Shown here in pieces: positions 44,059-60,910 of a stretch of DNA of 64,000 nt (position 1 is its first letter; every line of letters starts with the position of its first letter). The notes beneath the pieces were generated by a model. That model was not told the origin of the DNA, made no database searches, and saw only the letters and a program-made list of their open reading frames with translations. This DNA comes from Streptosporangium brasiliense (lineage in GTDB: Bacteria; Actinomycetota; Actinomycetes; Streptosporangiales; Streptosporangiaceae), in contig NZ_JAUSRB010000002.1 of NCBI RefSeq assembly GCF_030811595.1, positions 2,790,001 to 2,854,000 on the forward strand, given 5' to 3'. Both the position numbers and the translations under genes were made by a program.

Positions 44059-44167
44059 GCCTGTCAATTTAGGTTGACATCGAATGGCTGTCAACTCTGC
44101 TTGACGCCGCCGGAGGTCAGAAAATGGTTTGCCTGGCGAGGAGGGAGTTTGTCAGCCTGGACTCGCT

Positions 44168-45859
44168 ATGCGCTCCCTACCTGTCGCCGACCCCGGCATC
44201 CCTGACGCCCGCAGCCCGGTCCGATACCTGTACTGGATCGCCCGCATGCAGGCGGGTTCCCTGTTCCTCGGCATCGGCTACGCCACCCTGTGGTGGCTGG
44301 CGATGGCGCTGGTGCCGGCCGCGATGGGCGAGGGCATCGACGCCATCAGGGCCAAGGACACGCCGGCCCTCGTCACCTGGGGCGCCGTGCTGCTCGGCCT
44401 GGGGATCGTGCAGGCGGCCGCCGGCATCCTCCGGCACCGGATGGCCGTCTACAACTGGCTGTGCGCCGCCTACCGGACCGTCCAGGTCACCGTCAGGCAG
44501 TCGACCCGGCTGGGCGCGACCCTGCCCAAGCGCATGTCCACCGGCGAGGTGGTCAGCGTCGGCAACTCCGACATCGCCCACATCGGCGGCGCGATGGACA
44601 TCCTGCTCAGGGGCACCGGCGCGATCGTCGCCATCGTCGCGGTGACCGTCATCCTGATCAGGGCCTCGCTGCCGCTCGGCCTGACCGTGCTCATCGGAGT
44701 GCCGGTCATGGCCGTCGCCGTCGTCCCCCTGCTCCGGCCGCTGCACCGGCGCCAGCACGCCCACCGCGACCTCCAGGGCGACCTGTCCACCCGCGCCGCC
44801 GACATCGTCGCCGGCCTGCGGGTGCTGCGCGGCATCGGCGGCGAGCAGGTCTTCGCCGACCGCTACGCCGAGGAGTCGCAGCGGGTGCGGCACGCGGGCG
44901 TGCGGGTGGCCGCGGTCGAGTCCACCCTGGAGGGCGCGCAGATCCTGCTGCCCGGCCTGCTCATCGCCGGGGTCACCTGGCTGGGCGCGACCTTCGCGAT
45001 CGAGGACAAGATCACCGCCGGCCAGCTCGTCGCCTTCTACGGCTACGCGGTCTTCCTGATCGCCCCCATGCGGGCGCTCACCGAGGCGGCCGACAAGCTG
45101 ACCAAGGGACACGTCGCGGCCCGCCGGGTGGTGCGGATCCTCAACCTGGAGCCGGAGGTGGACGGCGGCACCGGCCACTCGGGCGGGGGCCTGCTGCGCG
45201 ACGTGGCCTCCGGGGTCGCGGTCCGCCCCGGCGTGTTCACCGCCGTCGCGGCGGCCACGCCCGAGGACGCCGTCGCGATCGCCGACCGGCTCGGCCGCTA
45301 CAGCGACGGCGACGTCGACTTCGGCGACGTGCCGCTGGACACTCTGCCGATCGCGGAGGTCCGCCGCCGGATCCTGGTCGCCGACAACGGCGCGAAGCTC
45401 TTCGCCGGCGTGCTCAGGGACGAGCTCGACGTCTCCGGCGGGGCCTCCGCCGCCGACATCGCCGGCGCGCTGCACACCGCGTGCGCCGAGGACATCGTCG
45501 AGGCGCTGCCCGACGGCCTCGACGGGCACGTCGCCGAGTCGGGCCGGGAGTTCTCCGGCGGCCAGCAGCAGCGGCTCCGCCTGGCCAGGGCGCTGACGGC
45601 CGACCCGGAGGTGCTCATCCTCATCGAGCCCACCAGCGCGGTCGACGCCCACAGCGAGGCGCGCATCGCCGACCGGCTGGCCAAGGCACGGGCGGGCAAG
45701 ACCACACTGGTCTGCACGACCAGCCCGCTGGTGCTCGACCGCACCGACCATGTGATCTACGTCGAGGGCGGCGTCGTGCACGCCCAGGGGACGCACCGGG
45801 AGCTGCTGGCGACCGTGCCGGCCTACACCGCCGTGGTCACCAGAGGGGAAGACTCGTGA
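44168..45859 (+). CDS. ABC exporter half-transporter with degenerate NBD
   Basis: 563 residues from the ATG at 44168; no good ribosome binding site decides the start. A six-helix exporter domain (about 1-320) is followed by an unusual nucleotide-binding domain. Its Walker A is missing (VFTAVAAATPEDAVAIAD stands there). Walker B lacks the Asp (LILIEPTS) and the H-loop His is lost (VCTTSPL), yet the signature FSGGQQQRLRLARAL is intact. It should pair with the next protein, donating the signature to one working ATP site. Substrate unknown. Confidence 0.88.
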   Translation: MRSLPVADPGIPDARSPVRYLYWIARMQAGSLFLGIGYATLWWLAMALVPAAMGEGIDAIRAKDTPALVTWGAVLLGLGIVQAAAGILRHRMAVYNWLCAAYRTVQVTVRQSTRLGATLPKRMSTGEVVSVGNSDIAHIGGAMDILLRGTGAIVAIVAVTVILIRASLPLGLTVLIGVPVMAVAVVPLLRPLHRRQHAHRDLQGDLSTRAADIVAGLRVLRGIGGEQVFADRYAEESQRVRHAGVRVAAVESTLEGAQILLPGLLIAGVTWLGATFAIEDKITAGQLVAFYGYAVFLIAPMRALTEAADKLTKGHVAARRVVRILNLEPEVDGGTGHSGGGLLRDVASGVAVRPGVFTAVAAATPEDAVAIADRLGRYSDGDVDFGDVPLDTLPIAEVRRRILVADNGAKLFAGVLRDELDVSGGASAADIAGALHTACAEDIVEALPDGLDGHVAESGREFSGGQQQRLRLARALTADPEVLILIEPTSAVDAHSEARIADRLAKARAGKTTLVCTTSPLVLDRTDHVIYVEGGVVHAQGTHRELLATVPAYTAVVTRGEDS

Positions 45860-45926
45860 GCGGGCGAGCGGAAGAGCGCCGTGATCGTGTGAGCACAGGT
45901 TCCGGGTGGCGGGCGGAGGAGAAGGC

Positions 45927-47672
45927 ATGAGCAGGCAGATCCTGCCCGTCGCCGACCAGGCGCAGGTCCGGGCGTACGCCCGCAGGCTCACGTTGAAATA
46001 CCCCCGCGACCTGACGGTGGCGCTCGGCCTGCACGGCCTGGCCGCCGTCGCGGGCCTGGCGGTGCCGTGGCTGCTGGGCCGGCTGGTCCAGGGGGTGCAC
46101 GACGGCACCGGGATCGACGTCACCATGGTGGCGCTGGCCATCGGCGGCTTCCTGGTCGCGCAGGCGGTGCTGGTCAGGGCCGCGGTCTACGCCTCCTCCA
46201 GGCTCGGTGAGAAGGTCCTCGCCGAGCTGCGCGAGGAGTTCGTCGGCCGGGTGCTCGGCCTGCCGCTGTCCACGGTCGAGCGCGCCGGGTCCGGCGACCT
46301 CATCACCCGGACCTCGCGGGACGTGGACGCGCTGTCGCGCACGGTACGGCACGCCGTACCCGAGACGCTGATCGCGCTGGTCACCTGCGTGATCACCGTC
46401 GGCGCGCTGCTGGTGGTGGGGCCGCTGCTCGCGCTGCCCTCGCTGCTGGCCGCGCCGATCCTGTGGATCTCCACCCGGTGGTACCTCAAGCGGGCCCGGG
46501 ACGGCTACCTGCGCGAGAGCGCCGCCTACGCGGACATGACCGACGGCCTGGCCGAGACGGTCGGCGGCGCCCGCGCGGTGGAGGCCCTGGGCCTGCAGGC
46601 CCGGCGGCACCGCCGCACCGACACCGACATCTCCCGGTCGTGGGCGGCCGAACGCTACACCCTGGGGCTGCGCACGGTCTGGTTCCCGGCGGTCGAGCTC
46701 GGCTACGTGATCCCGATCGTGGCGACGCTCGTCATCGGCGGCATGTTCTACATCCGGGGCTGGGTCTCGCTGGAGCAGGTCACCGCGGCCACGCTCTACG
46801 TGCAGCAGCTCATCGACCCGCTCGACCGGCTGCTCATGTGGATCGACGAGCTCCAGGTCGGCGGGGCCTCCATGGCCCGCCTGCTGGGGGTCGCCGAGGT
46901 GCCGGACGACCGCGAGGCCGGCCCCGGCACTCCCGACGGAGAGGAGCTGCGGGCCAGCGGCGTCCGCTACGCCTACCGCGAGGGCCACGACGTGCTGCAC
47001 GGCATCGACCTGGTGGTCCAGCCCGGGGAGCGGCTGGCGATGGTCGGCCCGTCCGGCGCGGGCAAGTCCACGCTGGGCCGCCTGCTCGCGGGCATCCACG
47101 GCCCGCGCAGCGGCGCGGTCACGGTCGGCGGCACCCCCCTGGTCGAGCTCCCGCTGGACGACCTGCGCGGTCACGTCGCCCTGGTCACCCAGGAGCACCA
47201 CGTGTTCCGGGGCACCCTGCGCGACAACGTGCTGATCGCCCGCCCCGACGCGGACGACTCCCAGGTCCGCGCGGCGCTGTCGGCCGTGGACGCCCTGGAG
47301 TGGGTCGAGGCGCTGCCCGGCGGCCTGGACACGGCCGTCGGCTCCGGCGGCGAGCCGGTCTCGGCCGCCCAGGCGCAGCAGCTCGCCCTCGCCCGCCTGG
47401 TCCTGGCCGACCCGCACACCCTGGTGCTGGACGAGGCCACCTCGCTGATCGACCCCAGGGCGGCGCGCAACCTGGAACGGTCGCTGGCCGCCGTGCTCGA
47501 CGGCCGCACCGTGATCGCCATCGCCCACCGCCTCCACACGGCGCACGACGCCGACCGGGTCGCGGTGGTCGAGGACGGCCGGATCAGCGAGCTCGGCTCC
47601 CACGAAGAGCTCGTCGCGGCCGAGGGCTCCTACGCGGCGCTGTGGAGCAGCTGGCACGGCACGTCCAAGTAG
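45927..47672 (+). CDS. ABC exporter half-transporter, catalytic partner
   Basis: 581 residues from an ATG with a GGAGGAGAAGG site. The exporter domain (about 1-320) precedes an NBD with Walker A GPSGAGKST, Q-loop VTQEHH, Walker B TLVLDEATS and H-loop IAHRL all intact. The signature is degraded to PVSAAQAQQLALARL. This is the complement of the preceding gene: together they can form one canonical ATP site. An 18-bp duplication spans its stop codon. Confidence 0.9.
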   Translation: MSRQILPVADQAQVRAYARRLTLKYPRDLTVALGLHGLAAVAGLAVPWLLGRLVQGVHDGTGIDVTMVALAIGGFLVAQAVLVRAAVYASSRLGEKVLAELREEFVGRVLGLPLSTVERAGSGDLITRTSRDVDALSRTVRHAVPETLIALVTCVITVGALLVVGPLLALPSLLAAPILWISTRWYLKRARDGYLRESAAYADMTDGLAETVGGARAVEALGLQARRHRRTDTDISRSWAAERYTLGLRTVWFPAVELGYVIPIVATLVIGGMFYIRGWVSLEQVTAATLYVQQLIDPLDRLLMWIDELQVGGASMARLLGVAEVPDDREAGPGTPDGEELRASGVRYAYREGHDVLHGIDLVVQPGERLAMVGPSGAGKSTLGRLLAGIHGPRSGAVTVGGTPLVELPLDDLRGHVALVTQEHHVFRGTLRDNVLIARPDADDSQVRAALSAVDALEWVEALPGGLDTAVGSGGEPVSAAQAQQLALARLVLADPHTLVLDEATSLIDPRAARNLERSLAAVLDGRTVIAIAHRLHTAHDADRVAVVEDGRISELGSHEELVAAEGSYAALWSSWHGTSK

Positions 47673-47756: not shown

Positions 47757-49742
47757 TCAACCGTTCATGGACGGGGCGCCGTGGTCGTGCTGCCACAGGC
47801 CGACCATGACGGCGTACAGGGGGGATCGGGCCGCCAGGTCATGATGGGAGCCGGTGAGCACGGTGGCGCCGTCCATCAGGAGGACGCGTTGCGCCCTGCG
47901 CGCGGAGCTGATCCGGTGCGCGATCACGATCAGGGTGCCGTGCCTGGCCGCGAACGCCGTCTCGGCCGCCGCCTCGGCGGCCGGGTCGAGGTGGCAGGTG
48001 GCCTCGTCCAGGACGACCAGGCGGGCCGGGGAGGCGTAGGCGCGGGCCAGGGCGATGAGCTGTCTCTCGCCGGCCGACAGCGTGGACGGTCCGTCGATCA
48101 CGGCGTCGAGGCCGCCGAGCCGTTCGACGAGCGCGCCGGCGCCCACCGCCTCCGCCGCCCCGCGCAGCCTGGCGTCCGCGGTCCCGGCGGGGCAGAGGTA
48201 GGCGAGGTTCTCCCGGACCGTCCCGGTGAAGACGTACGCCTCCTGCGGCACGAGCGCCACCATGGCCCGCAGCTCGTGTCCGGCTATCGTCCGGAGCGGG
48301 ACTCCGCCGAGCCGTATCTCCCCTCCGGTGGGCCGGCTCAGCCCGGTGAACAGCATGGACAGTGTGGACTTGCCGATGCCGCTGGGGCCGACCACGGCCA
48401 GGTGTTCGCCTTCGGCGACCGTGAGGTCGAGGTCGCGCACGACGGGGGTGGCCTGCGGCGCGTAGGCGAAGCTCAGCCGCTCCGCCCGCAGCCCGTACCC
48501 GTCCGGGGAGGCGGTGCCGTCGGACAGGGCGGTGTCACCGGACAGGGCGGTGCCACTGGGCGGGACGGTGCCGTCGGGCGGGGCGGCGCTGTCCGGGGAG
48601 GCGCTGTCCGGGGAGGCGGTGCCGTCGGACAGGGCGGTGTCACCGGGTGGGACGGTGCCGGGCGGGGAGGCGGTGCCGTCGGGCGGGGCGGGGACGGCGT
48701 GCACGGTGACGGTCTCGGCGATCCGGCGCAGCGTGACGGCGAGCGCCACGCCCCAGCCGCCGACGGTGCCGGTGAGCGAGCGCAGGGCCGGATCGAGGCC
48801 GGTGGCCAGGTAGGTCATCGCTCCGACGACCTCTCCGGCGCTGAGCCCGCCGTTCTCTGTCAGCGGCCGGGCGGCGACCAGCAGGCCGAGCAGCGGGACG
48901 TGCGCGCCGAGCGTGACGACGAGTCGCCGGCCCAGACCGGCCCAGGCCAGCGCCCGGGTGGCCGTGGCGTGGGCGGTGACGGCGGTCTCCACGGTGGCGT
49001 ACGCCTGGGACTGCGCCCCGCAGGCGGCGATGTCGCGCAGTCCGGCCAGGATCGGGGTGGCCTGGGCGGTGAGCGCCTCGCCGGCGAGGACGAGCTCGCG
49101 CTGGCGGACCACGAGCACGCGCAGCGTCCTGGCGAACACGGCCAGCGCCACGAGCACGGGTACGGCGACGACGGCCGCGGCCACGGGGGACAGCAGCAGC
49201 AGCCCTCCGAGCACGGCGAGCAGGGAGACGCCCAGCGAGCGGCTGCTCCGCAGCAGCGCTGACACGAGGTTCCGCACCGTCTCCACCTGCTCGGTGAGGC
49301 GGCTGACGGCGGCGGTGTCGGGCGGTCCGCCGCCGTGGGCGGCGCGGGTGACGGTGGCGGTGACGACGGCGGTGACGAGGTCGTCGCGTAGCGGCTCCAC
49401 CACCGCGGCCAGATGGGGGAACATCAGCCGCGTGGCCACGGCTCGCAGCAGCATCGCGGCCCCGAGGAGGGCGAGCCAGGCCAGGCCGGCGCCCGGGTCT
49501 CCGGCCAGGAAACCACGGTCGACGGCGGCGGCGACGAACAGCCCGGACAGCCACGCCGGACCGGCCTCGACGAAGGACCAGGCCATGGCGGCGGCGAGGG
49601 GCCGCCTGCGGCGGCGCAGCAGCGCCGACAGCAGCCTGAGCCCGGCGGCGACGGACCGGTCCGCTGCCGGGGCCCCCGTCGCGGTGCGGGCGGCCACGCC
49701 GCCGGGATCAGGCCGCGGGCGGGTCACAGACGGGCCGGGCAC
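47757..49742 (-). CDS. ABC exporter of the lanthipeptide cluster (second transporter gene)
   Basis: 661 residues; fused exporter membrane domain (about 30-340) and NBD (about 430-650) with GPSGIGKST, LSAGERQLIALARA, LVVLDEATCHLD and VIAHRISSA. Between them lies a long linker of about 80 residues rich in DGTASP, GTVPP and GDTALS repeats. GTG start after GGAGGAAAC, overlapping the previous transporter gene by 19 bp, so the two probably form a heterodimer exporting the modified peptide. The cysteine-protease (C39) domain found in class II LanT is absent. Confidence 0.87.
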   Translation of the reverse strand: MPGPSVTRPRPDPGGVAARTATGAPAADRSVAAGLRLLSALLRRRRRPLAAAMAWSFVEAGPAWLSGLFVAAAVDRGFLAGDPGAGLAWLALLGAAMLLRAVATRLMFPHLAAVVEPLRDDLVTAVVTATVTRAAHGGGPPDTAAVSRLTEQVETVRNLVSALLRSSRSLGVSLLAVLGGLLLLSPVAAAVVAVPVLVALAVFARTLRVLVVRQRELVLAGEALTAQATPILAGLRDIAACGAQSQAYATVETAVTAHATATRALAWAGLGRRLVVTLGAHVPLLGLLVAARPLTENGGLSAGEVVGAMTYLATGLDPALRSLTGTVGGWGVALAVTLRRIAETVTVHAVPAPPDGTASPPGTVPPGDTALSDGTASPDSASPDSAAPPDGTVPPSGTALSGDTALSDGTASPDGYGLRAERLSFAYAPQATPVVRDLDLTVAEGEHLAVVGPSGIGKSTLSMLFTGLSRPTGGEIRLGGVPLRTIAGHELRAMVALVPQEAYVFTGTVRENLAYLCPAGTADARLRGAAEAVGAGALVERLGGLDAVIDGPSTLSAGERQLIALARAYASPARLVVLDEATCHLDPAAEAAAETAFAARHGTLIVIAHRISSARRAQRVLLMDGATVLTGSHHDLAARSPLYAVMVGLWQHDHGAPSMNG

Positions 49743-51616
49743 GTTTCCTCCGTCCCCGGCGAGCCGCCGCCGGCCGGTCCGGCGCAGTCCGGTCCGCCGC
49801 CGGTCGACTCGGTGCCGGTGGGGTGGGTGTCAGCCGGTCCGCCGTCGGCCGGTCCGGCGTCGGTGGGGTGGGCGTCGGCCGGTCCGGCGTCGGCCGGTCC
49901 GGTGCCGGAGGCGAACAGGGCGCGGTAGGACGGGTCCCGCCACAGCGTCCGGTGGGTGCCCTGGGCGCGGATCCGGCCGTCGTCCAGCCAGACGACGAGG
50001 TCGGCGCGGGCGGCGGTGGTGGTGCGGTGGGCGATGACCAGCCGGGTGGACCCGCGCATGCCCTCCAGCAGGGTGCGGGTCACCTGGGCCTCGGTCACCG
50101 TGTCGAGGCTGGAGGTGGCGTCGTCGAGAATGGTCAGGCGGGCCCGCCGTACCAGGGCGCGCGCCAGGCCCAGGCGCTGGAGCTCGCCGCCGGACAGCGG
50201 GGCGGTGTCGGCGGGGGTCCGGTAACCGTCCGGGAGACGGCAGACGACCTCGTCCACGTGCGCGGCGCGCGCGGCCCGCCGGACGGCGTCGCGGTCGAGC
50301 TCGGGCCTGCCGTAGGCGATGGCCGAGGCGAGGTCGCCGCCGAGGAGCACGGGGCGTTCGAAGGCGTAGGCGACCGCACCGCGCAGGGCGTCCGGCCGGA
50401 TGTCGGTGAGGCGCTGCCCGTCGAGCAGCACCTGCCCCCGGTCGGGGTCCATCAGCCGCCCGGCCAGCAGGGCCAGCGTGGTTTTGCCCGCCCCGGAACG
50501 TCCGACGAGGGCGGTCAGCGCTCCGGCGGGGATCTCCAGGTCGACGCCGTCCAGGAGCGGGGTGCCCTCGCGGGTCACGGTGACGCCGCGCAACGACAGG
50601 GCGCCGGGGCCCGCGGACAGCGGGCGGGTGCCGGGGACGGGGGAGGGCAGGGCCAGCACCTCCCCCACCCGCCGGGCCGCGGAGCGGGCGTGGGCCAGCC
50701 CCATCAGCCCGTCGACCTGCTCGATGAAGGTCAGACCGAGGGCGGTGTAGCCGGCCACGGCCAGGAGCTGTCCCGGCTCCAGACGGCCGTCCGTGACGCC
50801 GAATCCGGCCACGGCGAGGACCAGCAGCTCCACCAGCGGCAGCAGGGCGATCTGCCACACGCCGCGCGCCTGCGCGCGCCACAGGGCCCGCCCGGCGCTG
50901 GACAGGTCCGCGAGGGGGGCGAGCACCCGGGCGATCTCACGGCCGGCGGTGCCCGAGGCGCGTACCGTCCGGATGCCGGCCAGGGCGTCGGTGAGGCGGG
51001 TGGCCAGCCGGCCCTGCGCCTCCTGATAGCGGCCGTAGAGCCCGGAGACCCGGGTGACGAAGGTCCGTACGATGATCAGCGCGATGGGCGCGGCGGCCAG
51101 GAAGGCGATGCCCGCCCGCCAGTCGGTCATCAGCAGCGCGACCACGCCGCCGGCCGAGGTGACGAGCCCGGTCGCCGTGCCCAGCAGCGTCAGGGGGAGG
51201 TAACCGGTGCTGGCGGTGTTGCTCACCAGGCGGTTCGCCAGCTCCCCGGCCGGATGGCGGCGGGTCCCGGCGGCTCCGAGCGTGAGGAGGTGGGCGGTGA
51301 GGCGCAGCCGCAGGGCCGACGTGGCGGACGCGGTGGAGGCCGCGCCGGCCGGCACGCCCACGACCTCGGCGCACACCGCGGCCGCCAGGACGAGCGCGAG
51401 CTGCCAGGCGGTCTGTCCGCCCTGACCGGACAGGACCCCGTCCACGGCGGCGGCGAGTACGGCGGGCAGGGCCAGCGCGGCCGCGGTGGCCACGATGTCG
51501 GCCACCGCGGCCACCGCCAGCGGCGCCCACGCCCGGCGTGCGGCGGACGCCAGGAGGCGGTCGGCGTCTGCGCGCGTCACCTGCTGTGGCGGGCCGCCCG
51601 GTGCCTGATCTGACAT
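49724..51616 (-). CDS. ABC exporter of the lanthipeptide cluster (first transporter gene)
   Basis: 630 residues; exporter domain (about 25-320), then NBD with GRSGAGKTT, LSGGELQRLGLARAL, LTILDDATSSLD (Asp in place of the catalytic Glu after Walker B) and VIAHRTTTA. The last 60 residues are repeats of GPADAGPADAHPTDAG type. The ATG at 51616 follows GGAGGGAGACG. It lies 200 bp after lanA, behind a hairpin that may limit readthrough. The non-catalytic Walker B suggests an asymmetric heterodimer with the next protein. Confidence 0.87.
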   Translation of the reverse strand: MSDQAPGGPPQQVTRADADRLLASAARRAWAPLAVAAVADIVATAAALALPAVLAAAVDGVLSGQGGQTAWQLALVLAAAVCAEVVGVPAGAASTASATSALRLRLTAHLLTLGAAGTRRHPAGELANRLVSNTASTGYLPLTLLGTATGLVTSAGGVVALLMTDWRAGIAFLAAAPIALIIVRTFVTRVSGLYGRYQEAQGRLATRLTDALAGIRTVRASGTAGREIARVLAPLADLSSAGRALWRAQARGVWQIALLPLVELLVLAVAGFGVTDGRLEPGQLLAVAGYTALGLTFIEQVDGLMGLAHARSAARRVGEVLALPSPVPGTRPLSAGPGALSLRGVTVTREGTPLLDGVDLEIPAGALTALVGRSGAGKTTLALLAGRLMDPDRGQVLLDGQRLTDIRPDALRGAVAYAFERPVLLGGDLASAIAYGRPELDRDAVRRAARAAHVDEVVCRLPDGYRTPADTAPLSGGELQRLGLARALVRRARLTILDDATSSLDTVTEAQVTRTLLEGMRGSTRLVIAHRTTTAARADLVVWLDDGRIRAQGTHRTLWRDPSYRALFASGTGPADAGPADAHPTDAGPADGGPADTHPTGTESTGGGPDCAGPAGGGSPGTEETCPARL

Positions 51617-51739
51617 CGTCTCCCTCCGGGACGTATCCGTTGCCGCCGCGGTCGTCGGCCGCCGGGCGGCTCCCGGCGGTGGCCGGGCGACCGGGGGCGG
51701 GTGTCCGCGGCGGGGCGGCGGTGAGTCCGCCGCCCCGTG

Positions 51740-51771
51740 GTGAGGCCCGGGGCGCGTGCCCCGGGCCTCAC
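51740..51771 (-). terminator. Hairpin between lanA and the transporters
   Basis: A perfect 14-bp stem (gtgaggcccggggc / gccccgggcctcac) with loop gcgt, 45 bp downstream of the lanA stop. Could attenuate transcription so that precursor exceeds transporter. Confidence 0.75.
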
Positions 51772-51815
51772 TCAGTGATCTATTTGGTGCTCACCGCATC
51801 CGCGGTGCGAGCGTT

Positions 51816-51959
51816 TTACCAGGTGGGGGCGCCGCCGGTGACGCCGCAGGTGGGGCTCCACGGGTCGGAGCAGGTCTCCCCGCAGGTCATCCGGCACTGC
51901 TGGAGGCCGGCCTCCTCGGTGGCGGGAAGCATGTCCAGAGCGGCGATGTTGAGCTCCAT
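51816..51959 (-). CDS. lanA: Class IV lanthipeptide precursor (LanA)
   Basis: 47 codons, ATG at 51959 with GAAAGGAAAC before it. The leader is acidic and short: MELNIAALDMLPATEEAGLQ, where LPATE recalls the LPET-type leader motif of class IV venezuelin. The following 27 residues are rich in Cys/Thr/Ser: Cys22, Cys26, Cys30 and Cys38; Thr25, Thr29, Thr37, Thr41, Thr46; Ser31, Ser35; three Thr-Cys pairs. The core could carry up to four thioether rings. Position between the lanL/protease pair and the exporters supports the call. It was not among the supplied predicted ORFs because of its length. Confidence 0.85.
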   Translation of the reverse strand: MELNIAALDMLPATEEAGLQQCRMTCGETCSDPWSPTCGVTGGAPTW

Positions 51960-52033
51960 GGCGTTTCCTTTCTCGATGGTGATGACCGGGCCGCCGTCCT
52001 TTACGGCAGCCCTTTTTCACGGCCGGCGCCGGA

Positions 52034-52124
52034 CGTCCCCGCCGCGCTGACGCGGGGCGGGACGCCGGGTGTGCACCGGCCGGGCTCGTGGCGCGTCCAC
52101 GGCCTGCCAGGCCGTGCGGGACGC
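52034..52124 (-). terminator. Two hairpins after the lanL-protease unit
   Basis: Just past the protease stop a stem cacggcc-tgcca-ggccgtg (52098-52116) with outer gcgtc/gacgc arms, and further on an imperfect stem at 52034-52064 with loop ctga. They separate lanL and the protease from lanA, which must then have its own promoter in the remaining 52000 region. Confidence 0.55.
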
Positions 52125-52134
52125 GGATGTCCGG

Positions 52135-53928
52135 TCAGCGGCCGCGGGGCGGCCCGGTGCCGAGGAAGTCGACGATGCGGCCGAGAACGGCGCCGTCCCG
52201 GGTGTCGTGCTGCGGGTCGTGACCGCCGCCGGGGACCTCCAGGTAGGTCACCTGGCCGTGGGCTCCGCGTAACCGGGCGTACAGCCGGCGGGAATGGCCG
52301 ACCGGGATGACCGGGTCGTCGTCGCCGTGCACGATGAGCAGTGGCAGCCGCATGCGGCCGACCAGCCGTAGCAGGTCGCGGGGGCCGAGGTCGTCGTCGA
52401 TCTCAGCCTGTCCGCCGAGCCGCTCCAGCAGGGCACGGACCGGCGCCGGCCCGTCCTCCGCCAGCTCCCGCCCCGACAGGAAGGGCGCGACGACCGCGGC
52501 ACGGGACCACAGGTCGGCCTGGGCGGCGGCGGCCAGCAGCGCCAGGTAGGCGCCGTAGCTGGCGCCGTAGAGCATCGCCCGCGGCCTGTCCGGCCCGCGG
52601 GCGGCGGCCAGGGCGCGGCCCAGTTGGAGGATGTCGGCGAGGTCGGGTCCGCCCCACGCGCCGTGGACGGCCTCACGGTGGGCGGCGCCGTACCCCGTGC
52701 TGCCGCGCTGGTTCGGCGCGACCACGGCGACACCCGCGGCGGCCAGGCGCTGGAAGAGCGGGTCGAAGGCGAAGTGCCAGGCGTCCTCGGGGCCGCCGTG
52801 CAGCGCGAGCACGGCCAGGCGGCTGGTGGCCGGGTCGCCGTACACGATCGCCTCGACGGGGCCCGCCGCGCCGGCGTAGGACCGGACACGGGCCGGTTCC
52901 AGCCGGGCCGCGTGGTCCTCCCCGACGGGAAGGAACCGCGGCCGGCCGCACCCGTCCACCCTGACGAAGCCCGGCGGGCGGTCAGGCGCGCTGTGGATCA
53001 CGTGCAGGCCGGTGGGGCCCCAGTGGGCCGCCGGGTACAGCGTCCCGGCCGGGAGGCCGACCTCGACGGTGGTGTCCTCCACCAGGTCGTGCAGGAGGAG
53101 GTGGGAGCGGGTGCGGCGGGTCACCGCGAGGGCCAGCCGCCGTCCCGCCGGCTCCAGGGCCAGCGGCGTCACCACGCCCTCCACGGCGTTGAGCCGCTCG
53201 GGGAAGCGGGTGGGCCCCTCGCCGTCGCGGTGGCGGACGCCGAGGCGGTAGGCGCCGTCGCGGTGCGCGGCGGTGAGCAGCACGCCCGGTCCGGGCGCCG
53301 CCAGCAGGAGACGCTCGTCGCCCGCGGGCCCGGCCGGGGAGGTGAAGGTGCCGCGTGAGGTGTCCAGGACCACGGTCGCCGGCCCCGGCCCCACTGTGGT
53401 CAGGGCCAGGCGGTGGCCGGCCCCGTCGAGCCAGATCCCGCCGCTGAGGAGGTAGGGCAGTTCGGCGATCGGTTCGGGCCGCTCCGCCCGTCCGGACAGG
53501 CGCCACGCGGTGGTGCGCCCGTCGGCGCCGGCGCCGAACGCCAGGGCGGCGGTCCCCCGGGCCGTGCCCGCGACGATCCTGACCCCGTTGCCGCGCAGGA
53601 CGCCCACCTCGTGCTCTGCGGCGCTCTCCGCCCCGTACGGCGCCGCGGTGACCAGCGTCAGGCGATGCTCGCCAGGCCCGAGGCGGCACAGCAGCAGGTC
53701 GCCCCCCTCGGTGGGCACCGGCAGGCTCAGCGAGGTCTCGCCGGCGCGGGTGCGGAGCGGCCGCGGCCGCGGCCGGGCGTCGGCGAGGTCCCACATCTCC
53801 GCGGTGAGGCGGCCGTGGCCGAGCTGGGTGAGGCAGGCGGCGTACCGGCCGCGCCCGGAGAAGCGGAAGTTGATCCGCGGGACATCCGGCGGGCGGTTCT
53901 CACCCGCCCTGGTGACGGTCTGGCTCAT
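52135..53928 (-). CDS. S9 prolyl-oligopeptidase-type protease, candidate leader peptidase (LanP)
   Basis: 597 residues: N-terminal beta-propeller-like part (about 15-340), then an alpha/beta-hydrolase domain. Catalytic triad: Ser457 in GASYGAY, Asp538 in HGDDDPVIP, His570 in GGGHDPQ. No signal peptide, so it acts in the cytosol. The ATG overlaps the lanL stop (ATGA), so it is made together with the synthetase. Prolyl oligopeptidases FlaP and AplP remove leaders in class III lanthipeptide systems. A matching role on the Pro12-containing LanA leader is inferred. Confidence 0.85.
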   Translation of the reverse strand: MSQTVTRAGENRPPDVPRINFRFSGRGRYAACLTQLGHGRLTAEMWDLADARPRPRPLRTRAGETSLSLPVPTEGGDLLLCRLGPGEHRLTLVTAAPYGAESAAEHEVGVLRGNGVRIVAGTARGTAALAFGAGADGRTTAWRLSGRAERPEPIAELPYLLSGGIWLDGAGHRLALTTVGPGPATVVLDTSRGTFTSPAGPAGDERLLLAAPGPGVLLTAAHRDGAYRLGVRHRDGEGPTRFPERLNAVEGVVTPLALEPAGRRLALAVTRRTRSHLLLHDLVEDTTVEVGLPAGTLYPAAHWGPTGLHVIHSAPDRPPGFVRVDGCGRPRFLPVGEDHAARLEPARVRSYAGAAGPVEAIVYGDPATSRLAVLALHGGPEDAWHFAFDPLFQRLAAAGVAVVAPNQRGSTGYGAAHREAVHGAWGGPDLADILQLGRALAAARGPDRPRAMLYGASYGAYLALLAAAAQADLWSRAAVVAPFLSGRELAEDGPAPVRALLERLGGQAEIDDDLGPRDLLRLVGRMRLPLLIVHGDDDPVIPVGHSRRLYARLRGAHGQVTYLEVPGGGHDPQHDTRDGAVLGRIVDFLGTGPPRGR

Positions 53929-56843
53929 CGGACCGGACCGCTGCGGAGGTCGCCGCCGGGGGCGTCGGCCATCCAGGGACGCGGCCCGCCGTGCCGGAGC
54001 CGGTGCAGGAAGTCCAGGATGCCCGCCAGCCCGGTGTTCCAGCCGATGGTCACCGCGGTCCCTTCCTCGTCCGGCACCACCAGCAGCCCGTCGCGGACGA
54101 CGGCCCGGCTCCACAGGACCCCGGCCAGTTCCTCGGCCCGCTCGCGGTAGACCGGCTCGTCCAGCAGGTCGGCCAGGTCCAGGAGGAACTGGCCGTCACC
54201 GGCCAGGCCGTGGCAGGCCGCGGTGCCGGAGACCAGGCGCCGTGCGTGCACCGCGCGGGCGGCGCTCTCGGCGGCCTCCCGCAGGCGTGGGTCACCGGTG
54301 GCCGCGTGCAGGCGGAGCAGGAACGTGCCCACCCCCGACGACCCGCTGCACCAGTGGGGGATCCGGTCGCCGCCGTCCGGGGACTGCGGCCACCAGGCCG
54401 CCCCGTCCCGGTACTCGGCCGCGGCCAGCAGCGTCTCCCCGGCCGTCACGGCCGTTTCCAGGCAGTCCTCGCGCCCCAGCGCGGTCCCGGCGGCCAGCAG
54501 GAACGTCGCGACCCCCGCGACGCCGTGCGCGAAGCCGTAGTGCACCGCCCCCGCCAGCGCGGAGTCGAAGTCGTCGGGGACGGGCCACAGCACGGTGCCG
54601 GGAGTGTGCCGCGCCGCTTTCAGCAGGGTGTCGGCGCACTCCCCGGCCCGGTCGGCGAAGCGGGTGTCACCGGTGGCCCGGAACAGGTGCAGCAGCGCCA
54701 GTCCCGTCCCGGCCAGGCCGTGGCACACGTCCGGGTTCGGCCAGCTGACCGGCAGGGCCAGGGCCGTCTCGACGCCCGCCCCGCGCAGCGCCTCGTCGCC
54801 GAGCGCGCGGCCCGCCTCGTACAGGCTCCACGCGATCCCGGCCCGGCCGAAGTACAGCCCCGGCGAGGGCCGGTGCTCATTCGCCAGACGGCGCGCCGTC
54901 CAGTCCGCCGCCTGACGCAGGCCCCTGCGGACCTCGTCCCGCGACGCCGGGGGGACCGCCCGGCCGGACCCCGACTCCGAGGTATCCGGCACTGAGGTCT
55001 CCAGCGCTGAGGTCTCCAGCGCTGAGGTCTCCGGCGCTGAGGTCTCCAACGCTGAGGTCTCCAGCACCGAGGCGAACAGGCTGAGCACTCCCGCCGAGCC
55101 GTACTGCACGGCACACGGATCGGCGTTCGAGCCGAACCCGGAAGTGGGCCACAGGCTGCCCCTCGCCCCGGGGTCGGCGAGGGCCTCCGGCGACATCGTC
55201 CGCAGCGTGTGGGCGATGCCGTCGTTCAGCAGCCGGTCCTGCTCGGGGACGCCCAGGCGGTAGGCGTCCGGCGTCCCGGCCGGGGCGGCGGCCGCCGCCG
55301 CGAGGAACTCCTCCACCCGCCGCAGCTCCCAGCGCCGCTCGGGAGCCTCCGCCATCAGGCCGAGCAGCAGCGGCGCCAGTGCCGTCGCCACGGGATCACC
55401 GGCGCCGACGACGCTCACCAGCGTCTCCAGCCGCCGATCGCGCGAGCGTGCTCCGAGCGGTCTGTCCTCCAGCAGCGTCGGCTGGGATCCGGTGGACAGG
55501 AAGTACAGCGTCGCGCCCAGCGCGAACAGGTCGACGGCCGCTCCGGGCGCGGGGGAGTGCCTGGGGGCGGAGACCTGCTCGGGGGCCGCGTAGCCGAGGG
55601 TGAAGTTCCGCTGGACGGGGGTGCCGGGGACGGCGGCCAGCTCCAGGTCGATCAGCCGGCACTCCAGCTCGGGGGTGACCATGATGTTGTTCGGCGTCAG
55701 GTCACGCAGCACATACCCCTGGCCGTGCACGGTGGAGACCAGCGCCACCAGACTCCGGGCCAGGCGCAGGACGGTGTCGTACCGGTCCCGGTCGGAGGTG
55801 ACGTGGCGCTGCTCGCCGACCCAGGCGCTCAGCACGGTCCCGGCCAGGAGTTCCTGCGCCAGGAAGAGGTTGCCGTCCTGTTCGAAGAAGGCCACCTTCC
55901 GTGCCGTGACGCCCAGCGGTGCGAACAGTTCGAGCATGTGCGCTTCGTGGCGCAGCAGGTCACGCACGTCGCGCCCATCGGTCGAGGCGCAGAGGTGCGG
56001 GCGGGCCTGCTTGACCACCACCTCGCCGCCCCCGGTCCGGTCCTCGGCCAGGAACACACCGCCCTTGGCGCCGTGCCGGATCGCCCGGCGCACCACGAAC
56101 CGGTCGCCGAGCAGCACCGGGCCGGCCGGCGCCGCCGACGCCTGCCCCGACTCGAACGGGCAGGTCGCCCACGCCGGGGGTGAGTACCACGCGTTGCGCT
56201 GGTCCAGCTCCCGGGTGCCGTCGGGCGCCGTCAGCCGCGAGGCGTAGGTGCCGTCGTTGCCCAGCTCGCTCGGGGCGGAGAACACCCCGTAGCGGTAGTG
56301 CACCAGGCTCCCCGGCCGGTAGGGGCGGTCGGACAGGACCGGTGGTCCGGGCAGGGCGTAGGTGGCGGCGTGCAGCTCCTCGGCGATCACCACGGCGGTC
56401 GGGTCGTCGGGCGGGTAGACCGTGACGAACTTGCCGACCGACCCGCGGCCCGTCTCCCGGGAGATGAGCCTGACCAGCTCCTCAAGGTCGGAGGCGAACT
56501 TGAACGCGCACCGGTGGCGGCCCAGCACCTCGACCACCCGGGTCAGCACCAGGGGGGCCGACAGGGGTGTCGCCGAGACGTGCAGCTTCCAGCCCTGCGC
56601 CCGGGAGGCCGAGCCCGCGGGGGTGACATAGGTCCATGGCGTGCCGGGACGGATCTCCCAGCCGGCGACGGCCTCCGCTCCCGGAGACACCCGGGACGCC
56701 GTGCTCCCGGCCCCGTCCGCCACCGCGGCGTGCGGCGCCCCGGCGGCCTGGGCGGCCGTCCGCGCCAGAGCCGCCCTGGCGACGTCTCCGAGCAGGAAAC
56801 GGTCCCCGCCGGGGAGTTCACCCTCGTTCATGGACTTGCTCAC
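53925..56843 (-). CDS. lanL: Class IV lanthipeptide synthetase LanL
   Basis: 972 residues in three domains. The lyase (about 1-215) has GKFVTVYPPDD and LVHYRYGVF. The Ser/Thr kinase (about 240-500) has GGVFLAED, VVVKQARP, VLRDLTPNNIMV and RLIDLELA. The LanC-like cyclase (about 570-972) keeps all three zinc ligands: Cys832 in HWCSGSSG, Cys877 and His878 in ACHGLAGDG. Intact zinc ligands separate LanL (class IV) from LanKC (class III). A short pentapeptide repeat (LETSA type) joins kinase and cyclase. GTG start with GAGG upstream. Confidence 0.92.
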   Translation of the reverse strand: MSKSMNEGELPGGDRFLLGDVARAALARTAAQAAGAPHAAVADGAGSTASRVSPGAEAVAGWEIRPGTPWTYVTPAGSASRAQGWKLHVSATPLSAPLVLTRVVEVLGRHRCAFKFASDLEELVRLISRETGRGSVGKFVTVYPPDDPTAVVIAEELHAATYALPGPPVLSDRPYRPGSLVHYRYGVFSAPSELGNDGTYASRLTAPDGTRELDQRNAWYSPPAWATCPFESGQASAAPAGPVLLGDRFVVRRAIRHGAKGGVFLAEDRTGGGEVVVKQARPHLCASTDGRDVRDLLRHEAHMLELFAPLGVTARKVAFFEQDGNLFLAQELLAGTVLSAWVGEQRHVTSDRDRYDTVLRLARSLVALVSTVHGQGYVLRDLTPNNIMVTPELECRLIDLELAAVPGTPVQRNFTLGYAAPEQVSAPRHSPAPGAAVDLFALGATLYFLSTGSQPTLLEDRPLGARSRDRRLETLVSVVGAGDPVATALAPLLLGLMAEAPERRWELRRVEEFLAAAAAAPAGTPDAYRLGVPEQDRLLNDGIAHTLRTMSPEALADPGARGSLWPTSGFGSNADPCAVQYGSAGVLSLFASVLETSALETSAPETSALETSALETSVPDTSESGSGRAVPPASRDEVRRGLRQAADWTARRLANEHRPSPGLYFGRAGIAWSLYEAGRALGDEALRGAGVETALALPVSWPNPDVCHGLAGTGLALLHLFRATGDTRFADRAGECADTLLKAARHTPGTVLWPVPDDFDSALAGAVHYGFAHGVAGVATFLLAAGTALGREDCLETAVTAGETLLAAAEYRDGAAWWPQSPDGGDRIPHWCSGSSGVGTFLLRLHAATGDPRLREAAESAARAVHARRLVSGTAACHGLAGDGQFLLDLADLLDEPVYRERAEELAGVLWSRAVVRDGLLVVPDEEGTAVTIGWNTGLAGILDFLHRLRHGGPRPWMADAPGGDLRSGPVR
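54979..55068 (-). repeat. 15-bp coding repeat in lanL, 6 copies
   Basis: Six tandem units of gaggtctccagcgct type (first at 54979-54993) encode Leu-Glu-Thr-Ser-Ala variants in the kinase-cyclase linker. In frame, so copy-number change would only alter linker length. Confidence 0.9.
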
Positions 56844-57251: not shown

Positions 57252-59312
57252 TCAGGCGAGGGCCTTCCTGAGGAAGTCGACCTGGAGCAGGAGCAGGTTC
57301 TCGGCCACGACCTCCTGAGGGGTCATGTGGGTGACACCGGACAGCGGCAGGACGTTGTGCGGGCGGCCGGCCGCCAGGAGCGCGGAGGACAGGCGGAGGG
57401 TGTGGGCGGCGACCACGTTGTCGTCGGCCAGGCCGTGGATCAGCAGGAGGGGGCGGTCCAGCTTCTCGGCGTCGGCGAACAGCGACGACGATTCGTAGTG
57501 CCCCTCCTCGGGCAGGCCGAGGTAGCGCTCGGTGTAGCAGGTGTCGTAGAGGCGCCAGTCGGTCACCGGCGCCCCGGCGACGGCCGCGTGGAAGACGTCC
57601 GGGCGGCGGAGCACGGCCAGGGCGGCGAGGAAGCCGCCGAAGGACCAGCCACGGATGCCGACCCGGGACAGGTCCAGGTCGTCGGGGAAGCGCTCGGCGG
57701 CCCCCTGGAGCGCGTCCACCTGGTCCTCCAGGGGCGGGGTGGCCAGGTCGTGCAGGACGGCCCGCTCGAACTCGGGGCCGCGGCCCGGGGTGCCGCGGCC
57801 GTCGGCCACGATCACCGCGAAGCCCTGGTCGGCGAACCACTGGCTGGTCAGGTAGGCGCCGGAGGCGGCCAGGACCCGCTGGGCGTGCGGCCCGCCGTAG
57901 GGGTCCATGAGGACCGGCAGCCTCGCCGAGCCGGGCACGTGCCCCGCCGGGAAGAGCACGGCGGTGGACAGGTCGCGCCCGCCCGCGCGGATGAGGGAGA
58001 CCCGCAGGTCCAGGCCGTGCCGCTCGGCGTAGGAGGCGATGTGGCCCCGGGGCTTGCCGTGGTGGAAGACGCGGGTCGCCGAGCCCTCGTCGCCGAGGGT
58101 CTGGCCGGTGACCACCAGGGTGCCGCCGGCCGTGTGGCCGCTGTAGACACCGCTCTCGGCCGGGCTGACCAGCGTGATCCGGCCGTCCTTGTAGGCCCAC
58201 AGGGCGACCTCGGTGGGCTCGCCGCTGGCCCGGAAGAGCACGGCGTCGCCGTCGATGTCGACGACCTCGCGGAGCTGGAGCGTGGCGGGCGTGACGGGCT
58301 CGTCGCCGATGATCAGACGGTGGCCCCCGTCGCTGCTCGCGGCCCAGACCAGCGTGCCGTCGGACAGGTGGCCGGGCACGCCGGGGACGACGTCCAGCCA
58401 GGCGGGGTCGGTGTCCTCGCGGACGGTCGTGGAGCGGCCCGTGGCCGGGTCGACCTTGAGCAGGCGCATGGTCCGCTGGTCGCGCGACAGGGTGACGATC
58501 GTCAGGCCGTGGGCGTCCCAGGAGGCGGTGACCAGGTATTCGTCCTCGAAGGGGACGGGAGTGCGGGAGCCGTCCAGGGACAGGATGTACAGCTCGACCC
58601 GGGTGTTGGCCGTGCCGGCGGCGGGATAGCGCTGCTCGGTGGCGGGGCGGGCGGGGTTGGCCGGGTCGGCGATGTGCCACCTCGCGACCGGCGACTCGTC
58701 GGCCCGCTCGGTCAGCACCGCGTCGCCGGACGGGGACCACCAGTAGCCCCGCATGCGGTTCAGCTCCTCGGCGGCGATGAACTCGGCCAGGCCGTAGGTC
58801 ACCTCGGGGGACTCGGGGCGGGCCAGCACGTGGTCGATCTCGTCCTCGAGGTCCTGGACGTGGAAGGCGCCGCCGGTCACGTAGCCGACGTGCTCGCCGG
58901 TGGGGGAGACCCGCGGGTCGATCACCGGGCCGGACGTCTTCAGCCGCCGCATGTGCTTGGTCTTCAGGTCGACGACGTAGAGTCCGCCGGAGAGGGCGAA
59001 GGCCGCCGTGGTCACCGCGGTGTCGGTGCTGTAGCCGACGATGCCGCCCGCCTGCTCCCGGCTGCGCTCGCGCCGTGCCCGCTCCTCCGGCGGCAGGTCC
59101 TCCTCGTCCACGGCCAGGGCGCGCGGGTCGGCGATCAGCCGCTCCTTGCCGCCGGCGACGTCGAACTCCCACAGGCAGGTGACCGGGTCGGAACCGCTCT
59201 TCGTCCGGAGGAAGACGACGCGGTCGCCACCCGGAGCGATGGTGAAGCCACGGGGCACGCCGAGGGTGAACCGGCGGGTCCTGGCCTGCAGACGAGGGAA
59301 ACTCTCACTCAT
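57252..59312 (-). CDS. S9 family peptidase (DPP IV/acylaminoacyl-peptidase-like)
   Basis: 686 residues from the ATG at 59312; another ATG at 59321 is possible. An N-terminal propeller-like region precedes the catalytic domain with MDPYGGPHAQRV, VIVADGRGTPGRGPEFERAV, the serine in IRGWSFGGFLAAL, Asp in LIHGLADDNV and His in SGVTHMTP. The DGRGTPGRG style resembles DPP IV-like enzymes that release N-terminal dipeptides. It is separated from the lanthipeptide genes by a terminator and is probably housekeeping, though it could trim peptides. Confidence 0.88.
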   Translation of the reverse strand: MSESFPRLQARTRRFTLGVPRGFTIAPGGDRVVFLRTKSGSDPVTCLWEFDVAGGKERLIADPRALAVDEEDLPPEERARRERSREQAGGIVGYSTDTAVTTAAFALSGGLYVVDLKTKHMRRLKTSGPVIDPRVSPTGEHVGYVTGGAFHVQDLEDEIDHVLARPESPEVTYGLAEFIAAEELNRMRGYWWSPSGDAVLTERADESPVARWHIADPANPARPATEQRYPAAGTANTRVELYILSLDGSRTPVPFEDEYLVTASWDAHGLTIVTLSRDQRTMRLLKVDPATGRSTTVREDTDPAWLDVVPGVPGHLSDGTLVWAASSDGGHRLIIGDEPVTPATLQLREVVDIDGDAVLFRASGEPTEVALWAYKDGRITLVSPAESGVYSGHTAGGTLVVTGQTLGDEGSATRVFHHGKPRGHIASYAERHGLDLRVSLIRAGGRDLSTAVLFPAGHVPGSARLPVLMDPYGGPHAQRVLAASGAYLTSQWFADQGFAVIVADGRGTPGRGPEFERAVLHDLATPPLEDQVDALQGAAERFPDDLDLSRVGIRGWSFGGFLAALAVLRRPDVFHAAVAGAPVTDWRLYDTCYTERYLGLPEEGHYESSSLFADAEKLDRPLLLIHGLADDNVVAAHTLRLSSALLAAGRPHNVLPLSGVTHMTPQEVVAENLLLLQVDFLRKALA

Positions 59313-59398
59313 ACCAGTCATCTTGCCAGTTCCATGTCTCGTCCCGAGGTTCTCGGCGGCGGCTTGAGCAACAGATGTCTTAGGAGAAACTTGGGCAG

Positions 59399-60910
59399 GT
59401 GACACTCACCGCGCGAATCGCCCGCTCTCCGGGGACACCTGCCGTGCTGGCGTTCGTGTCCGTGCTCTGGGGGATCGGCACCCCGTCGTTCTGGCGGGAC
59501 GAGTCGGTGAGCGTGCTGGCCGCGACCATGCCGTTCGACGAGCTGTGGCGGCTGCTCGACGACATCGACGCCGTGCACGCGCTGTACTACCTGATGCTCA
59601 GGCCGTTCGCCGCCTTCGGCGGGGAGACCGCGGCCCGGCTGCCCTCCGCGCTCGGGGTCGCCGGGGCGGCGTTCGGGATCGCGGCCATCGGGCGGAAGCT
59701 GGCCACCCCGCGGGTGGGCCTGCTGGCCGGGCTGGTCTACGCGCTGCTGCCCATGGTCAGCCGCTACGGCCAGGAGGCGCGGAGCTACGCCCTGGTCAGC
59801 GCGGTGGCGGTCGCGGCCACCTGGGTCCTGCTCGGTGAGCGCCGGTCCCGGTACGCCGGCTACGGCCTGCTGATCGCGCTGCTCGGCTGGTTCCACCTCT
59901 ACGCCCTGCTCCTGCTGCCCGCGCACGCCTGCGTCGTGGTCCGCAGGCGCGCGGAGATCGTCCCGTGGCTGGCGTCGCTGGCCGGGGCCGGGGCGCTGCT
60001 CGCGCCGCTCGCGCTGATCGCGGCCGGGCAGCGGGAGGAGCAGCTGTTCTGGCTGAAGGTGCCGGGCCTCGACGGCCTGGGGCAGCTCGGGGTGGACATC
60101 GCCGGCGGCGACGCGGCGTGGGCCGCGCCGTTGCTGCCCGCCCTGTTCCTGGCCGCGCTGATCGCCCTCGTCCTGTTCGGGATCTGGCGCGGGGTACGGC
60201 CCGCCGGCCGGGCCGGGACGGGCGGGGCGGCCGCGGGCGGCGAGGGGCCGGTGGCCGGGGCGGTCCGCGGGCCGGGGTCCGGAGGCGCGCGCCCGCCCGG
60301 GACGGCCCCCGGGCAGGTGTCCGCGGGCACGCCGCCGCCCGGGACGGCTCCCGGACGGCCGTCGCTGGTGTGGGTGGCGCTGCCCTGGGCGGTCCTGCCG
60401 GTGGTGCTGTCACTGCTGATCTCGCAGGTCCACCCGGTCTACAGCCCGCGCTACGTCCTCTTCGCGGTCCCGGGTCTGGCCCTGCTGGCCGGAGCCGGTC
60501 TGGCCGCGCTCGGCCGCGCCCCGGCGAGCTGGGCGGCCCTCACCGCCCTGGCGGTGCTCTCCACGAGCGCTCACCTCGCCGTCCGCGCCCCCGCCAACCG
60601 CCCTGACGACCTGCGCACCCTGGCGGCCGTGCTGAGCGCCGAGCAGCGGCCCGGCGACGCGCTGCTCTACGTTCCCGAGCGCTTCCGGCTGTTCGTCGCC
60701 GTGTACGGCGAGCCGTACCGGAGGCTGGGGCCGCCCGGTCCGGACTCCCGCCGGGTGTGGGTGGTCTCGCGGCGGCTCAACGGCCCCAGATGGACCGGCT
60801 ACCCGACGCTGAAGGCGCTGGAGCGGGAGTTCACCAAGGGACGGACCCGGGTGTTCGGGGCGGTCCACATCACCTTGTACACAAGGGCCCGGATACCCTC
60901 GAAGGCATGA
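59399..60910 (+). CDS. Polytopic GT39/mannosyltransferase-like glycosyltransferase
   Basis: 503 residues with about ten membrane helices. The early loop [10 protein letters not shown] has the acidic pair typical of GT-C enzymes (ArnT/PMT-like), followed by [23 protein letters not shown] low-complexity Gly/Pro/Ala loop (about 270-320) interrupts the helices; the soluble C-terminus is about 90 residues. It would use a polyprenyl-phosphate sugar at the membrane; substrate unknown. GTG start; the stop overlaps mshB (ATGA). Confidence 0.75.

Follow-up and report, generated by a model that had tools for sequence, protein, structure and literature searches.

A class IV lanthipeptide cluster of Streptosporangium brasiliense and a predicted string of small reverse rings in its precursor family

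What peptide does a compact lanthipeptide locus of Streptosporangium brasiliense make, how would its rings be laid, and which enzyme would release it from its leader? The locus lies within a 64,000-nucleotide stretch of contig NZ_JAUSRB010000002.1 (assembly GCF_030811595.1, positions 2,790,001 to 2,854,000, forward strand), termed the window, whose own numbering is used below unless a locus of another place is named. An original prediction described it as a complete class IV cluster with a cysteine-rich precursor and a product that is probably new. Very few products of class IV are characterised so far: a paper of 2022 counts two before the two of its own (PMC9576775). The most probable reading, rated at roughly 0.6, is an intact class IV operon whose peptide would be closed into small abutting reverse rings, cut after Pro12 by an S9 protease, and exported by two ABC halves.

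All five genes of the predicted cluster are present and intact. They run along the minus strand from 56843 to 47757 in the order lanL, S9 protease, lanA, ABC half 1, and ABC half 2 (Table 1). The two exporters of the original prediction are ABC halves by Pfam, and its protease is a protein of the S9, or prolyl-oligopeptidase, family. Near lanL lies a precursor gene that encodes a leader and a core of Cys, Ser, and Thr.

Table 1. Features of the cluster, in window coordinates
Feature	Coordinates	Strand	Basis
lanL, class IV lanthionine synthetase (lyase, kinase, zinc cyclase), 972 aa, GTG start	53925..56843	-	NF038150, Pfam RamC_N + Pkinase + LANC_like
Cys832 zinc ligand codon	54348..54350	-	counted from start 56843
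Cys877 and His878 zinc ligand codons	54210..54215	-	counted from start 56843
lanP candidate, S9 prolyl-oligopeptidase-like protease, 597 aa	52135..53928	-	Peptidase_S9, 86.5 bits
Region 5' of the lanA ATG holding a purine-rich, putative ribosome-binding-site-like stretch (GAGAAAGGAAACGCC)	51960..51985	-	sequence
lanA, 47-aa precursor peptide plus stop	51816..51959	-	NF038157, 23.3 bits, cutoff 19
LanA leader part, residues 1-21, LP motif at 11-12 (boundary putative)	51897..51959	-	leader/core identity contrast
LanA core part, residues 22-47, CRMTCGETCSDPWSPTCGVTGGAPTW; four Cys, five Thr, two Ser	51819..51896	-	family C-x(2-6)-[ST] rule
Perfect 14-bp hairpin 3' of lanA, before the exporter genes	51740..51771	-	fold of 51700-51820
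ABC exporter half 1 (membrane + ATPase)	49724..51616	-	Pfam; syntenic in relatives
ABC exporter half 2	47757..49742	-	Pfam; syntenic in relatives

The arrangement is shared with relatives. At least 82 loci with LanL relatives come from named genomes, and 80 of these were kept. Eleven close loci (L050-L059 and L107) from nine organisms encode LanL proteins 62-70% identical to that of the host, and ten of the eleven show the order LanL, protease, LanA, ABC, ABC. In those ten, the order and strand of LanL, protease, ABC1, and ABC2 are kept, with at least one lanA between the protease and ABC1; the exception, L058, has LanL and protease only. The class IV reading is upheld by the precursor of its own, the conserved catalytic residues, and this synteny.

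Genes of similar kinds flank the cluster. Just upstream of lanL is another S9 protein, this one bearing an N-terminal DPPIV domain (57252-59405, minus strand), and from the other side a separate pair of ABC transporter halves (44129-45859 and 45906-47672, plus strand) faces the cluster, seemingly outside the conserved order. Both the second S9 gene and the ABC gene at 45906-47672 were rejected as parts of the cluster: the former is the best match nowhere in 109 loci, and the latter has only scattered matches there, of 106-163 bits at most.

The synthetase itself is assigned by its score and its metal site. LanL reaches 1077.3 bits against the class IV model NF038150 (cutoff 650) and 439.3 bits against the class III LanKC model NF038151, below the cutoff of 575. 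Its Pfam domains are RamC_N, which covers the lyase region, Pkinase, and LANC_like. Cys-Cys-His zinc ligands of the cyclase are a class IV trait and are absent in class III. The ligands named in the original prediction are all present in LanL, as Cys832 (HWCSG) and as Cys877 and His878 (ACHG), and a class III assignment is rejected on both counts, the NF038151 score under its cutoff and the presence of the zinc ligands.

Catalytic residues are nearly invariant among 95 aligned LanL proteins, comprising the host LanL and 94 from the loci of relatives, two of which are host-genome paralogues (the set leaves out four short fragments, any exact duplicate, and L163, a class III protein). The zinc ligands are kept in 94 (C832), 93 (C877), and 91 (H878) proteins, and the cyclase residues H708 and H773 in 95 and 94. 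In the kinase, K278, D381, N386, and D399 are found in 95, 94, 93, and 95 proteins; in the lyase, K86, H88, K115, and Y143 in 94, 94, 92, and 94. The lyase residues were matched by motif to Lys51, His53, Arg83, and Tyr108 of VenL (PMC2843593), so that the third position is Lys here and Arg in VenL. These counts bear on whether the cluster makes anything at all. Detecting products of class IV in their native hosts is difficult (PMC2843593, PMC10676316), as a silent or decayed cluster without product would have it, but such a cluster is very improbable here: the catalytic residues are intact, the frames are open, the lanL stop overlaps the likely protease start (ATG at 53928) by 4 nucleotides (ATGA), and relatives share the gene order.

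In the LanL tree, the host protein is sister to that of Nonomuraea spiralis (L051). Both lie inside a clade of 26 entries (SH-aLRT 100) whose named members are Streptosporangiaceae. The protease is present in 25 of the 26, and the locus of the last, L130, ends where its LanL ends. Over the whole tree, presence of the protease changes 11 times against 25.6 in shuffles, with loci that end early counted as being without it. Elsewhere among the relatives, the LanL proteins of L073, L093, and L122 (Thermocatellispora, Acrocarpospora, and Herbidospora) carry CCG instead of CHG, by sequence probably a three-Cys zinc site. Three-Cys zinc sites occur in promiscuous ProcM-type class II enzymes.

The precursor gene proposed earlier is confirmed. 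LanA has 47 residues, MELNIAALDMLPATEEAGLQQCRMTCGETCSDPWSPTCGVTGGAPTW, among them four Cys, three of which form Thr-Cys pairs (25-26, 29-30, and 37-38). Two details of the original prediction need amending. A loss of up to four to six waters had been expected, and the seven Ser/Thr from Cys22 on make up to seven losses possible; the end had been described as WSPTCGVT-style, and the peptide finishes ...TCGVTGGAPTW rather than at CGVT. The calculated monoisotopic mass of the untagged, full-length LanA is 4941.156, which falls to 4869.113, 4851.103, 4833.092, and 4815.082 with four, five, six, and seven waters lost. The leader passes the curated cutoff of NCBIfam NF038157, "ALQxL family class IV lanthipeptide" (23.3 bits against 19). 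A precursor elsewhere that fits better had been named as a possible refutation; the search returned lanA as the single NF038157 match in the 10.5-Mb genome and nothing better, which also rules out a further host precursor of this leader family. The leader score over the cutoff, the sole match, and the position relative to protease and exporter genes, as in relatives, together make lanA more than a chance match. NF038157 matches occur in 30 of 341 genomes of the host's bacterial family, in 4 of 16 of its genus, and in none of 14 control genomes.

The likeness to the named family lies in the leader and in the class IV synthetase next door, which the family name itself announces; the differences are that the host leader has the form ALDMLP and that its core sequence was found nowhere else. 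Leaders of the ALDMLP group belong to 40 of 75 non-redundant cores. The nearest leader, that of L051, is 76% identical to the host's, whereas its core is 31% identical, and across 55 precursors with ALDMLP-type leaders, mean pairwise identity is 0.60 for leaders but 0.38 for cores. The family thus has a conserved leader and a hypervariable core. Searched against the 341 family genomes, the host core scores 102.2 bits at its own place and 36.6 at the next best, and it is absent from the 119 other extracted precursors. The expectation of a probably new product therefore holds for the core sequence, which is new to the material searched, and not for the precursor family, which NCBIfam has already named; the name ALQxL gave no match in a text search of the literature. 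In each of three relatives' loci (L079 14420-15285, L137 9576-10217, and L139 9609-10241), one synthetase is followed by an array of four to six precursors, whose leaders are near-constant and whose cores differ, like a small natural library.

Cores so variable can be compared for what they keep. Of 135 precursor candidates, hand curation removed all that scored below 11 bits, along with three sites taken to be chance matches or misplaced, and left 120 distinct precursors: 111 have a LanL match in their locus no more than about 6.5 kb away, and 9 do not. These give 76 cores at less than 60% mutual identity, or 75 after removal of one misparsed core. In the 76 cores, Ser/Thr stands immediately before Cys at 173 of 197 positions (shuffle mean 56.1, z 19) and three residues after Cys at 167 of 268 (shuffle mean 71.8, z 14), and is depleted at -2, -3, and -4 of Cys. 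Three-residue segments between Cys in the 75 cores end in Ser/Thr in 97 of 98 cases. By contrast, only 2 of 78 precursors have Ser/Thr immediately N-terminal to the first Cys.

This regularity went unseen in the original prediction, and on the sequence evidence it yields a specific ring prediction. Small non-overlapping rings (partners 3-7 apart) can be drawn for every Cys in 68 of 75 cores if the Cys is N-terminal to its partner, the reverse direction, as against 7 of 75 in the forward direction. Shuffled cores allow the reverse arrangement in a mean of 5.3 and at most 10 cases over 500 shuffles. By leader group, the reverse arrangement is found in 37 of 40 ALDMLP cores, 17 of 21 ALQxLP cores, and all 14 of the rest; the forward one in 2, 2, and 3. 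The forward test is somewhat handicapped, with the core defined from its first Cys and leader partners admitted only 3-7 residues upstream. A possible forward partner does stand at -5 of the first Cys, as a leader Ser/Thr, in 36 of 78 precursors; host LanA has Ala at that position.

Applied to host LanA, the family rule gives a prediction ring by ring. LanL would bind the conserved leader, its kinase domain would phosphorylate Thr and Ser of the core, and its lyase domain would eliminate the phosphate to leave dehydrobutyrine and dehydroalanine. The zinc cyclase would then add the Cys thiols in small, abutting, reversed rings, each Cys closing onto a Thr C-terminal to it. The predicted pairs are Cys22-Thr25, Cys26-Thr29, Cys30-Thr37 (or Ser35), and Cys38-Thr41; Ser31, Ser35, Thr46, and the leader residue Thr14 are left without an assigned partner.

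A different topology is suggested by the class IV prototype. Venezuelin has three reverse rings among its four (Cys34-Dhb39, Cys45-Dha49, and Cys32-Dhb43) and one large forward ring; the VenA positions are Thr31, Cys32, Cys34, Thr39, Thr43, Cys45, Ser49, and Cys50 (PMC2843593). A globular, interlaced, venezuelin-like product, combining reverse rings with at least one large forward ring, could arise here by forward closure of Thr25 and Thr29 onto Cys30 and Cys38. Once overlap and spans of up to 25 residues are permitted, a one-to-one matching of all Cys exists for 70 of 75 cores in the reverse direction and for 32 of 75 in the forward one, so the contrast in ring direction shrinks. Nevertheless, small forward rings serve all Cys in just 7 cores, as counted above, and the large forward ring of venezuelin starts at a Thr before the first Cys (PMC2843593), where Ser/Thr is so rare in this family. 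The interlaced product is for these reasons unlikely, albeit a serious contender; by analogy with that large forward ring, a mixed topology is possible.

A second alternative concerns the dehydration step. Ser/Thr-Cys adjacency is the most constant feature of the cores, longer segments included: segments of any length between Cys end in Ser/Thr in 172 of 193 cases in the 75 cores. In longer segments the Ser/Thr adjoins the next Cys (43 of 47 at length 4, and 21 of 27 at length 5) and rarely stands three residues after the previous Cys (9 of 47 and 3 of 27). The Ser/Thr thus stays by the following Cys, and the tight anchor is the Thr-Cys pair. Such an anchor fits abutting rings, and it also fits a kinase or lyase preference for Thr before Cys, under which a dehydrated peptide would still be made, with its Dhb partly uncyclised or paired by no fixed rule. 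A class IV product of Streptomyces sp. DvalAA-43 with three dehydrations and two rings (PMC9576775) gives such a preference some precedent. What it leaves unexplained is the tail: 49 of 69 cores have Ser/Thr at +3 of the last Cys, where no Cys follows (19.6 expected, and 0 of 5000 shuffled tails as high). A bare dehydration preference is accordingly rated quite improbable, and small abutting reverse rings are kept as the preferred product of LanL.

Release of this product would most likely fall to the protease of the cluster. The protein matches Pfam Peptidase_S9 at 86.5 bits and is an alpha/beta hydrolase with an S9 triad, assigned from motifs as Ser457, Asp538, and His570, which is kept in 67 of 67 aligned homologues, the host protein counted. 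Its best sequence matches among solved structures carry the names amino acyl peptidase and acylamino-acid-releasing enzyme and belong to S9. In a class III system, the prolyl oligopeptidase FlaP cuts modified FlaA after Pro(-12) (PMC10885120). The LP motif of LanA places Pro12 ten residues before Cys22, and by analogy cleavage of the modified peptide after Pro12 is most likely. Such a cut would leave residues 13-47, for which the calculated mass is 3629.499 unmodified and 3557.457 with four waters lost. Among distinct precursors, the Pro of the LP motif occurs in 82 of 89 with a protease gene and in 14 of 22 without (p 0.0019, with kinship ignored and loci that end early counted as lacking the gene); it is thus common in precursors without the gene too.

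The leader remnant could be trimmed further by an aminopeptidase encoded elsewhere. Three M1-type peptidases are present in the rest of the genome, and they could act as AplP-like enzymes do (PMC10885120). Removal of the leader by an exporter-fused C39 peptidase was considered and rejected, as Pfam finds no peptidase domain in either ABC half. These two halves would export the product.

How far do known systems resemble this one? Venezuelin of Streptomyces venezuelae (VenL/VenA) shares the enzyme class, the domain order, and the downstream exporter genes, and the reverse rings found in it are predicted here; the ven cluster has no protease gene, whereas that gene is conserved here (PMC2843593). 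The VenA core and its ring plan are interlaced, with one large forward ring, against the small abutting rings predicted for LanA. The original prediction had called the core unlike venezuelin, and by eye this is right: Gln, not Thr, precedes the first Cys, and the VenA spacing (PMC2843593) does not fit. SflA from Streptomyces sp. NRRL S-1022 is also class IV and has two non-interlaced rings (PMC8358304), but its leader protease is AplP-like and lies outside the cluster (PMC10885120), whereas the S9 protease lies inside here. FlaP of flavipeptin and the S9 enzyme NorP of noursin likewise place an S9-family protease beside a kinase-lyase-cyclase synthetase (PMC10885120, PMC10206099). Those systems are class III; here the synthetase belongs to class IV and has zinc ligands, and the substrate of its protease is putative.

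Judged from sequence, the locus appears to be a known kind of system with a new core sequence and a ring prediction at the level of the family. The core rule replaces a vague "probably new" by a prediction for each ring of this peptide, and it applies also to the majority of the remaining 74 non-redundant cores. Generalised further, the ALQxL/ALDMLP family may be a library of hypervariable cores that LanL enzymes fold into linker-free, abutting reverse (methyl)lanthionine rings, each Cys closing onto a C-terminal Thr or Ser; in one large group of clusters, the host's included, an in-cluster prolyl oligopeptidase would release the product at the leader Pro. This generalisation is put forward tentatively, at somewhat short of even odds. 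A string of abutting reverse rings in class IV was not described in the literature searched, which takes in neither the primary papers on SflA and SgbL nor the review of classes III and IV, and no priority is claimed. The rule raises the question by what means a LanC-type cyclase would determine the direction of rings in cores so unlike one another. The cluster is intact and compact and has a candidate leader protease of its own, and its reconstitution in E. coli is therefore reasonable.

Between lanA and the exporter genes lies a strong RNA structure. The 121-nucleotide region 51700-51820 folds at -79.5 kcal/mol (z -7.9), and the hairpin within it (Table 1) has a single site in the genome, even when 2 mismatches are allowed. 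The same 14-bp stem is found 3' of lanA in N. spiralis (L051, 14652-14804), though the cores have diverged. Behind some other lanA genes stand long perfect stems that differ from it in sequence. Of 132 precursor genes, duplicates included, 45 have a perfect stem of 10 bp or more behind them; stem length has a median of 7.0 bp, where shuffles give 5.8. A long stem after lanA is thus common in the family, not general. Neither a sigma-70-type promoter nor a T-tailed terminator on the minus strand was found in 51600-52200. The hairpin may protect an mRNA end, or cause partial termination that keeps lanA expression above that of the exporters.

Lanthipeptide synthesis in the host strain extends beyond this cluster. 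Two more class IV synthetases are encoded in its genome (L161 6157-9216, minus strand; L162 8394-11351, plus strand), scoring 923 and 918 bits against NF038150. Directly 3' of them are paralogous two-Cys precursor candidates of 36 residues (L161 6030-6140, minus, MSFDVQDLQGLEEREPAATEAARLTNCRIHLFCTDN; L162 11371-11481, plus, MSFDVEDLQALQEIEPAATEALRLTHCIKHFGCTDN). A class III LanKC (L163 7864-10503, minus strand; 1092 bits) brings the kinase-type lanthipeptide synthetases found in the strain to four.
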